This document shows positions 22,498 through 29,441 of a DNA stretch of 64,000 nucleotides, one piece after another. Position 1 is the stretch's first letter. Each line of letters opens with the position of its first letter. A program made the position numbers and the translations under genes. The notes below the pieces were generated by a model that saw only the letters and a program-made list of their open reading frames with translations, was not told the origin of the DNA and ran no database searches. The stretch comes from a candidate division KSB1 bacterium (GTDB lineage: Bacteria; Zhuqueibacterota; Zhuqueibacteria; Residuimicrobiales; Krinioviventaceae). The stretch spans positions 2,232,001-2,296,000 of the forward strand of contig JAXHMJ010000005.1 in the NCBI GenBank assembly GCA_034521575.1, written 5' to 3'.

Positions 22498-22717
22498 TTA
22501 AAGCTTGTTTGACTTTTACAGAAAAACCAACGAAATGCACCCCGGACAAGCCGTGTCTGGTTCGTGTCACCGGTCCCCCACGCACCTCGCACCCCGGACC
22601 TCTATCGGAATCTCTTTTTCTATATATTCTACAACTGCAGGATGATGCTTTTTCTCTTGCATTTATGTGAAATATCCTTAAATTGATGTATGTTTTAAAA
22701 TCAAAATGGAGGGTGAA

Positions 22718-23203
22718 ATGCCTGCTTTGATTGTAGAAAAACCACTGCGTGAAAAATTGGGCGAAGACGCATCGGAAAGTTTGCTTCGTCTTGTGAATCA
22801 AAGTGTTGAACAGCGGAAACACGAGATGTTGGAGTTTGTGGAAGAAAAATTTGAACGGCGGTTGAGTGAAGAACATGGCCAAATCAATGCGGCCATAAAA
22901 GAAACAGAACAACGTCTTGATAACCGAATCACAGTGGAAATATCCAAGGTCAACGAACGTATCACCACAGAAAGTTCCAAATTCAATGAGCGCATGACAG
23001 AAGAAATCGGCAAAGTCAATGAGCGCATGACAGAAGAGATTGGCAAAGTTAATGAGCGCATGACGGAAGAAACTGGCAAAGTTAATGAGCGAATTACTGC
23101 GGAAAATAGCAAGACCCGCGCCGACCTTATCAAATGGATGTTTATTTTCTGGATCGGTCAGGTGGGGGCATTATTGGGGATTTTGTTTGCGTTTTTCAAA
23201 TAA
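22718..23203 (+). CDS. Coiled-coil protein with C-terminal membrane anchor (DUF1640-like)
   Basis: A 161-residue protein. The N-terminal motif (MPALIVEKPLREKLGEDAS) resembles small bacterial proteins of the DUF1640/CCDC90-like type. Next comes a long coiled coil with five 11-residue repeats, and a single C-terminal helix (WMFIFWIGQVGALLGILFAFF). The ATG at 22718 is preferred to that at 22706 because GGAGGG sits between them at the right distance. The topology, cytoplasmic coiled coil anchored by the tail, is inferred. A partial second copy lies at 27524. The function is unknown. Confidence 0.82.
   Translation: MPALIVEKPLREKLGEDASESLLRLVNQSVEQRKHEMLEFVEEKFERRLSEEHGQINAAIKETEQRLDNRITVEISKVNERITTESSKFNERMTEEIGKVNERMTEEIGKVNERMTEETGKVNERITAENSKTRADLIKWMFIFWIGQVGALLGILFAFFK
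22934..23098 (+). repeat. Five tandem 33-bp (11-residue) repeats in the coiled-coil gene
   Basis: Consensus peptide EEIGKVNERMT. The first two units are diverged (VEISKVNERIT, TESSKFNERMT). The third and fourth are identical as protein. An 11-residue period fits a hendecad coiled coil. Confidence 0.85.
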
Positions 23204-26262: not shown

Positions 26263-27523
26263 ACAATCCTCATAAATCACTAATACTATTGAATTCTAAT
26301 TTCAATTTATTATTTTTACTTATTATATGCTAACTCCACATCATGTCAAAGTCAAAATGCATCATTTTTTATACCTTTGCGCATCTCAAAAGATTTCAAT
26401 TATCACCTATCCGATTAAACAAAAGGAAAACTCTGCATCCGAAAGCTGTTCTGTGCCGTGAATTTCGCGGTTCCGTGGTATTTCCTTTTCCACTCTGACA
26501 CCGCCCCGTAACGCTGCGCGAATCCATTGATGCATTCGGCGTCAGATGCTTCTCCCTGCCCTCAATACCACCGATCCCTTTGCAACTTTACAACCTAAAC
26601 TATTAATAGTCAAGCATTATTTTGATTGAATTGATCTGTTTGGCTTTTTGTGCTGAAAGAAAAGTTCGAACAACAAGAGTCGGTGTGTATGAAATGATGC
26701 CCGTGAACAGCAAAAACAAAGCATCGTTGCAAAACATGCAACTACCGGACCAGAAAAATTGCATTGTTTTTAATTGATTGACCGGAAACCCGATCTCGGA
26801 CCCTGAGAAGATTATTCGCAGCCGGTGAATGATTTTCGCGGGGAGCGTTTTGCAGTGTAGGATGTATACTGGAAGTTAGGTTGTCCGTCACAATAGGTGC
26901 CCGCCATAAACAAATTTCTACTGAAAGGCTGCTCCCTGAAATATCAATGGATATTTCACTCCGAATAAAACTCCGCCGAGGGGATCCGTTCCGGATCGTA
27001 CGGGGGTTCTACCCCCGTCACGCTATATAGCAGAGGGTTCTACCCTCTGATACTATCTACGAGTTTCAGGAGGTAGAACCTCCGGCTAACCTGCATAATG
27101 GAGTGGAACCCCGACGCGATTCCGATACGAAACAAAGTTTCGTGAGCAATGACGTGCCAAAATGATTTTTTTGGCCCGAGAGGGTGTAGAGATGATGCCC
27201 GGACAGGATTAACCGGATCAACAGGATCGATATTAAAATAAAGGATCATATCAAAAGAATCCTGTGAATTCCGAATATGCTGTGATCCGGTTCGATGAGA
27301 GATTGCGGGGCAGGAAACAAAAGTATGGTATAGTGAAGAATGCCGGCACATTATGAAAACAGAAGGGGGGCGGAAGACAGGCAGCCGAGCGGCCGGCCTG
27401 CGTTTTTCAGCAGGACGATAAACCGGGGTGCGGGAATATGAGGATTGAAAATCATTGCATTTGCCGGATGACCGCACCGTACACCTCTTGTTATACCGGT
27501 TTAGCGAGGCGGTGCCTGACCCC
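26263..27523. other. Gene-poor region of about 1.2 kb
   Basis: No frame on either strand has a credible start and product. The first 150 bases, upstream of the propeller gene, are AT-rich and probably hold its promoter. From about 26440 on the stretch is mixed in composition, like decayed coding DNA. It contains the hairpin row at 26983-27143 and a short 'caggat' repetition near 27205-27280. Confidence 0.6.
26983..27143. repeat. Row of five short hairpins with three-base loops
   Basis: Five perfect inverted repeats, each with a 3-base centre: GATCCG-TTC-CGGATC (26983-26997), ACGGGGGT-TCT-ACCCCCGT (27000-27018), CAGAGGGT-TCT-ACCCTCTG (27031-27049), GGAGGT-AGA-ACCTCC (27069-27083) and ACGAAAC-AAA-GTTTCGT (27127-27143). 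Numbers two to four share the core GGT-TCT-ACC, or its complement. They are not direct copies outside the core, so this is not a CRISPR array. Confidence 0.75.
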
Positions 27524-27667
27524 ATGACGGCGGAATTATCCAAGGTTAATGAGCGCATCACTTTAGAAAACAGCAAAACCCGCGCCGATCTCATCAAGTG
27601 GATGTTTATTTTCTGGATCGGTCAGGTGGGGGCGTTGTTGGGGATTTTGTTTGCATTTTTTAAATAA
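27524..27667 (+). pseudogene. Partial copy of the coiled-coil membrane-anchor gene
   Basis: 47 codons (MTAELSKVNERITLENS and the anchor WMFIFWIGQVGALLG) matching the last repeat and tail of the protein at 22718-23203. Most nucleotide differences are synonymous, so it probably derives from a full-length paralogue that was once under selection, not from a fresh local duplication. The N-terminal two thirds are absent and no ribosome site precedes the ATG. Confidence 0.7.
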
Positions 27668-28521: not shown

Positions 28522-29441
28522 AACAAATCTGTATGTTTCTTTTCTCGCTCAGCCTCGTGTTTCTTGCATGCGACTCCCCGTCGATCAATGACAGCAGCAT
28601 GCTGGACGGAGATTTTATGTATGACGTGTCTCTGTATGAACCGGAAAACTATCTGGTGTCCGCTGCCATTTCGGAACCGACGCCGGAACAATTGCAGATG
28701 CCGGTGGTCATTGCTTCGCACGGATATAGCGCCACCACGTTTGAATGGGACGAGTTTCATGCCTGGACCAGGGATCAGGGCGGCATGCTTGTTTCACGGG
28801 TGCTTTTGGGAGGACATGGCCGCGATTATCAGACCTTTAAACATTCAACCTGGCAGGATTGGCTGCGTCCCATTCAGAATGAATATGAACGTCTGGTCGA
28901 GCTGGGATATCAGCATATCTCTTTTCTGGCATCTTCTACATCCTGCGCACTGCTTCTGGAACTCCTCAACGACGGCTACTTTCAGGGAATGGATTATCCT
29001 GAACATTTTCTGTTTGTGGATCCCATCATTATTTCTTCAGACAAATTGCTGTCTCTGATTGGTATTGTCGGTCCTATGCTGGGATATATTGAAACAGAAC
29101 CCACAGACGAGGAACGCCGACACTGGTACACCTTTCGGCCCCAGGAAACCCTGCAGGAACTGCAAACGCTGTTGACGACTGTGCGCAAGGATTTACAGTC
29201 CGGCATCAACCTGGAATCACATTTAAAAGTATACAAATCAAAAAAAGACGAATCTGCAGATCCTGTTTCTGCGGTATTGATTTACAAGGGTGTAAAGGGG
29301 AACATCGAGGTGGAAATGGTCGATTCGGATCTGCATGTGTTTACACGCCTGGCCGGACGCGGCGCGGTTTCACAGCGGGATGTGACAAATCAGATGCAGG
29401 CGTTTCAGGATATCCGGCGTATTGTTTTAAACAGTCAATAA
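28518..29441 (+). CDS. Alpha/beta-hydrolase-like lipoprotein
   Basis: A 307-residue lipoprotein (lipobox VFLACD near residue 17) with an alpha/beta hydrolase core resembling carboxylesterases and monoglyceride lipases. PVVIASHGYSATTFEW forms the oxyanion strand with HGY. The expected nucleophile-elbow region reads FLASSTSCALLL. The usual G-x-S-x-G is therefore replaced by A-S-S-T-S, and whether Ser at this point still acts is uncertain. A possible acid/His pair is VDSDLHVFTR near the end. It is coupled to the barrel-like protein upstream (ATGA) and followed directly by a terminator. Confidence 0.75.
   Translation: MKQICMFLFSLSLVFLACDSPSINDSSMLDGDFMYDVSLYEPENYLVSAAISEPTPEQLQMPVVIASHGYSATTFEWDEFHAWTRDQGGMLVSRVLLGGHGRDYQTFKHSTWQDWLRPIQNEYERLVELGYQHISFLASSTSCALLLELLNDGYFQGMDYPEHFLFVDPIIISSDKLLSLIGIVGPMLGYIETEPTDEERRHWYTFRPQETLQELQTLLTTVRKDLQSGINLESHLKVYKSKKDESADPVSAVLIYKGVKGNIEVEMVDSDLHVFTRLAGRGAVSQRDVTNQMQAFQDIRRIVLNSQ

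Follow-up and report, generated by a model that had tools for sequence, protein, structure and literature searches.

What is a compact row of hairpins doing in a gene-poor region of a candidate division KSB1 genome? The window, by which we mean the whole 64,000-nucleotide stretch of DNA that was analyzed, was reported in a first-pass annotation to hold five perfect inverted hairpins with three-base loops within 160 bases, and a direct check of the sequence located all five at 26983-27143. Three of them, one on the opposite strand, have the core GGT-TCT-ACC in common, as had been claimed. No other 161-bp stretch of the window is as rich in loop-3 hairpins, the next independent best having 2, and first-order Markov sequences of local composition (n = 20,000) yielded a mean of 0.05 hairpins per 161 bp and a maximum of 2, in keeping with the earlier statement that chance would not give such a cluster. 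The window matched nothing in Rfam, tRNA, or tmRNA searches. The single mechanical open reading frame across the block (27040-27597, minus strand) looks spurious. The block also lacks the direct repeats with spacers of a CRISPR array, which the annotation had already set aside.

Five hairpins, two repeat families

A covariance model, R1, was built from aligned half-units of the repeat that we call family A. The features at the locus are as follows.

26320-27426: larger segment also found on contig C3, at 85-89% identity in pieces (L001/L002)
26983-26997: hairpin no. 1, GATCCG-TTC-CGGATC, overlapping the left GATC foot and spanning the left boundary of the element
26994-27121: family-A element, a REPIN-like doublet of two inverted half-units with a variable centre, both halves found by R1
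26994-27052, plus strand: left half-unit with GATC foot, hairpin 1, and hairpin 2 (R1 75.9 bits, E = 3.1e-20; covariation)
27000-27018, plus strand: hairpin no. 2, which is hairpin 1 of the left half-unit, ACGGGGGT-TCT-ACCCCCGT
27031-27049, plus strand: hairpin no. 3, which is hairpin 2 of the left half-unit, CAGAGGGT-TCT-ACCCTCTG
27064-27121, minus strand: right half-unit, partly decayed (R1 59.3 bits, E = 1.9e-15)
27069-27083, minus strand: hairpin no. 4, which is hairpin 2' of the right half-unit, GGAGGT-AGA-ACCTCC
27093-27118, minus strand: hairpin 1' of the right half-unit, decayed, with mismatched pairs in the R1 alignment
27115-27212: 98-bp segment with a 97%-identical copy in an unrelated setting at C5:1279116 (L001/L005)
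27122-27180, plus strand: family-B half-unit with hairpins at 27127-27143 and 27157-27174, aligning with units that flank a RAYT gene at G000:C3:62964-63461
27127-27143: hairpin no. 5, ACGAAAC-AAA-GTTTCGT, in the family-B half-unit

The five hairpins are not one object. Nos. 2-4 and a decayed fourth hairpin belong to a single element, and no. 5 belongs to a second repeat family; the hairpins of the first-pass annotation are thus real, but they form two families and a boundary hairpin as opposed to a single row of equals. The family-A element is an imperfect inverted repeat of ~128 bp in which two half-units stand head-to-head, each comprising a pair of hairpins and ending in GATC, in the order hairpin 1, hairpin 2, spacer, hairpin 2', hairpin 1'. 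Each half-unit spans ~58 nt and consists of a GATC foot, present in nearly all family-A half-units aligned, and of a longer and a shorter hairpin that share one tip. In the left half-unit, the stem modeled by R1 for hairpin 1 reaches outward to about 26997-27022.

The left and right ends of the element are reverse complements of each other, though imperfect ones. Intact ends (GATCGTGCGGGGG... and ...CCCCTGCGCGATC) are seen in copies L003 and L004, and the right half-unit in the window ends in AATCGCGT where GATCGCGC is expected. Hairpin 1' is intact in copies L003, L064, and L007 and worn in the window copy, which is why it was missing from the earlier list. Beyond the two family-A halves, an R1 scan of the window found nothing convincing. 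Hairpin no. 1 is probably the scar of a lost neighboring half-unit, formed at a junction of GATC ends, because another half-unit stands just outside the element in the C3 duplicate (C3:292490-292548).

Adjoining the element, positions 27200-27300 carry GATTAACCGGATCAACAGGAT-type sequence with the inverted repeat AACCGGATCA/TGATCCGGTT, which looks like another dispersed intergenic repeat. The C-terminus of a coiled-coil protein encoded at 22706-23203, which ends in RADLIKWMFIFWIGQVGALLGILFAFFK, recurs in truncated form beside the hairpin block at 27455-27667.

Copies within the genome

The 171-bp block has eight matches in its own genome counting itself, four of them substantial. R1 places the number of half-units at ~23 (23 matches at E < 0.001). 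There are four further two-half copies, two of which (L003 and L004) have intact ends and unrelated flanks; a full copy is present at C3:553217-553355. Close pairs of half-units are mostly in +/- orientation with their GATC ends outward; a few are tandem or reversed. In a rough comparison, open reading frames of at least 150 aa are overlapped by 4 of the 23 copies, as compared to 11 of 23 at a control position. Family A is dispersed, multi-copy, and mainly extragenic, as REPINs are.

Several of the copies are segmental duplicates as opposed to independent insertions (also L004/L063). The window copy and the copy at C3:292313 both lie inside a longer duplicated segment, and because 26320-27426 also occurs, in pieces, on contig C3, the C3 copy is a duplicate and does not represent an insertion of its own. 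Since, in addition, the C4:21151 and C3:553217 copies each follow paralogous WD40-like genes, copies outnumber insertion events.

Stem covariation and folding

Twelve aligned half-units share stems of 11 bp and 8 bp, in which 91.7% of cells are paired, a percentage biased upward by the presence of paralogues among the rows and by the drawing of the structure from the same sequences. Double-change cells number 23, as compared to 9.2 in shuffles, a control that leaves the relatedness among half-units in place, and the covariation score exceeds that of every shuffle and every slid version. When folded as single-stranded DNA, the element favors four hairpins (z -3.9); as RNA, the whole element becomes one long hairpin (z -6.1).

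Family A in relatives lies beside RAYT genes

R1 half-units occur in 21 of 82 genomes of the phylum, candidate division KSB1 MAGs among them, and G004, which belongs to the same family as the host, has 42 matches at E < 0.001. A blastn search with an intact copy gave no match in the other nine genomes of the family, whereas the covariance model did match. The first-pass annotation had offered remnants of small palindromic elements as one reading, which is borne out by these copies at home and in relatives and by the compensatory stem changes; the lack of copies and of conservation that it named as counting against the proposal is not what was found.

In several relatives, these half-units have RAYT transposase genes as neighbors. 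In G019, two inverted half-units enclose an open reading frame of ~190 codons that NCBIfam calls a REP-associated tyrosine transposase (NF047646). Inverted half-units lie on either side of the transposase frame in G019, G024, G022, and G018, within about 60 bp in several relatives, and in G004 one half-unit stands on each side in direct orientation with an inverted one downstream. The flanks of L164 and L167 hold units of the same layout as family A; those of L132 were read by eye and by R1. The RAYT proteins tested exceed the NCBIfam REP_Tyr_transpos cut-off and have the HUH and tyrosine motifs, and the RAYT profile matches the E. coli TnpA_REP structure 4ER8 (E = 7.5e-07). In a tree whose deep nodes are weak, which has L154 on a long branch and is read here without the mis-framed rows L141, L145, L155, and L170, five family-A RAYTs group together with support (95/96); L139, from the host genome, falls in another clade (98/94). 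Because half-units of relatives enclose RAYT genes, the 128-bp element can be read as the ends of a RAYT element minus the gene.

In the host genome itself, no RAYT gene is flanked by family A. A PF01797 search found seven Y1_Tnp loci there, none with convincing family-A units, and several of the seven adjoin other repeated hairpin families. Family A is probably an orphan in this genome.

A second family and further RAYT systems

A protein search found one RAYT of this group in the host genome, L139, at C3:62964-63461. It is flanked by two direct copies of the family-B two-hairpin unit, to which the half-unit at 27122-27180 aligns with scores of 59 and 64 (shuffles: mean 29, maximum 44). Four other good family-B copies are present in the genome. 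By these alignments, the fifth hairpin sits in a half-copy from a second, similarly designed family, and the RAYT of that family resides on contig C3. A RAYT gene between the same units is therefore found in relatives for family A and in the host genome for family B.

Other host Y1_Tnp genes (L066, L067, L068, L070, and L072) lie amid their own families of short G+C-rich hairpins, such as CCCCGGGC/GCCCGGGG spaced ~190 bp at L068 and GGTCGACCA at L072, so the genome has several REP/RAYT-like systems. At G000:C5:27458-30691 (L069), an HsdR gene of the type I restriction kind, open over 1248 aa, holds an in-frame IS200-like Y1_Tnp (RAYT-type) domain at 28958-29191. The domain separates the helicase part from T1R_D3, and repeated sequence that encodes hairpins lies at its edges.

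Interpretation of the element

We favor, with a probability of roughly 0.86, the explanation that the block is the worn remnant of one copy of a miniature REPIN/TIR-type repeat, itself non-autonomous and mobilized in trans by a RAYT, an HUH enzyme resembling group 5/subclass 2.6. The family would accordingly be a mobile one, and, by analogy with other families of the phylum, a RAYT would have been the mover of family A in this genome. Such a protein would act on DNA in single-stranded form, as on the lagging strand of a replication fork, where it would bind the hairpin tips of the folded half-units and its tyrosine would cut near the GATC foot; the cut piece would then pass to new intergenic sites, gene-less copies being served in trans. 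TnpA_REP processes folded, single-stranded REPs according to its published descriptions (PMC8266576, PMC6006769), and given that biochemistry, mobilization in trans at single-stranded DNA is the natural reading, which for the present group we infer. One intergenic region measures about 0.1 kb in G003 versus 1.9 kb in G004, where it holds three half-units, and a search of G003 for empty sites corresponding to two G004 regions found intergenic expansion only and no clean empty site.

Compensatory changes, the RNA fold of the whole element, and the position of most copies off long open reading frames would also be expected of a conserved regulatory or terminator RNA, kept for its fold and not mobile. 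Such an RNA is quite unlikely, however, since the inverted repeat puts the pattern on both strands, the copies sit in unrelated settings with no constant neighboring gene, the same units bracket transposase genes, and Rfam holds no match; a secondary effect of the element at the RNA level, as known for REPs, is possible. A 128-bp inverted repeat in dispersed copies likewise recalls a MITE whose terminal inverted repeats are served by a DDE transposase or by a tyrosine recombinase (integron attC-like sites included). A Y1/HUH RAYT, however, is the sole gene found between such ends, and neither L003 nor L004 shows an evident target duplication, which makes this origin very unlikely. While hairpin no. 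1 alone could have arisen by chance, a chance cluster is refuted for the block as a whole by the Markov counts and by covarying copies in many genomes, and its probability is negligible.

Same-tip hairpins around other RAYT genes

The flanks of 78 related RAYT loci from many phyla contain 4.5 hairpins per kb (stems of at least 8), as compared to 0.11 about 1.1 kb away. Of 96 pairs of neighboring hairpins, 46 agree in their 4-base tip, where permutation predicts 15 and reaches at most 26. The pairs are non-independent in that some enter once in each direction and tips are common to related loci. Tip sharing is therefore a strong hint, to which no probability can be attached. Around RAYTs of other phyla (flanks of L170, L172, L175, L181, L207, and L226), common repeats such as CGTTCCCAAGC-TCCA-GCTTGGGAACG were observed, accompanied by another hairpin that is shorter and has an identical tip. 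As a tentative proposal that we regard as somewhat doubtful, group-5-like RAYTs in many phyla might read paired hairpins of unequal length and identical tip with a GATC or other non-GTAG foot, the tip being specific to each RAYT, in a code distinct from that of GTAG REPs.

Comparison with known systems

The odd hairpin cluster is hereby explained, and little-studied KSB1-type bacteria are shown to have several RAYT/repeat systems. The locus had been put forward as the best local candidate for an undescribed element, a claim that is not supported, as the block behaves like repeats already known, the REP/REPIN or TIR type that goes with RAYT-type HUH transposases. To class it as a canonical REP would nevertheless be wrong, because the foot is GATC in nearly all half-units where GT[AG]G is the rule, and because each half-unit has two hairpins over ~58 nt in place of a single 20-40 bp palindrome. 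Integron attC sites were rejected by inspection, their core GTTRRRY mismatching GTTCTAC.

REPINs (Bertels and Rainey 2011, PMC3116915) are similar in that two inverted REP-like units around a variable spacer, an arrangement found in the window, C1, C4, and C3:553217 copies, are dispersed extragenically and tied to a RAYT; they differ in that their unit is one GTAG-tagged hairpin as opposed to two hairpins and a GATC foot. TIRtrons/TIRYTs (Di Nocera et al. 2013, PMC3733652) place a tyrosine transposase between inverted, partly self-complementary 'double palindromic TIRs', and there too the repeats also occur elsewhere as dimers and the GTAG tag is absent. In Quentin et al. (2018, PMC6006769), 20 of 26 TIRYTs belong to subclass 2.1, where the proteins have HTH tails and the repeats contain GGGGWSAS; the present family, unlike that majority type, has a GATC-foot consensus and proteins of ~180 aa without an HTH match (Pfam, L131 and L139).

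Closest is TnpA_Y1 subclass 2.6, or Bertels group 5, for which the same text gives as markers NH[LIV]H, WQ, YIH[QN]NP, an SS tail, and a length of ~179 aa. L139 has NHLH, WQ, YIHRNP, SS, and 179 aa, and the family-A proteins, at ~180 aa with an NHLH-like HUH motif, Y-I-H-x-N-P, and an SS tail, come close but not exactly, the HUH motif often being THLH and the W being followed by K, S, or Q; the placement as group-5/2.6-like is thus a candidate one, made by motifs. That text describes subclass 2.6 RAYTs as mostly from Bacteroidetes and places 'atypical secondary structures' on their flanks. These lack GTAG and recur at other sites of the genome, and the present design can be compared with them by description only. 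For structures called only 'atypical' there, family A provides a concrete description, namely two same-tip hairpins, a GATC foot, and inverted doublets, and the two-hairpin, same-tip design suggests how this group of RAYTs may recognize its repeats. What is new is the family-A repeat itself; the REP/REPIN-type class to which it belongs is already known, if thinly described.
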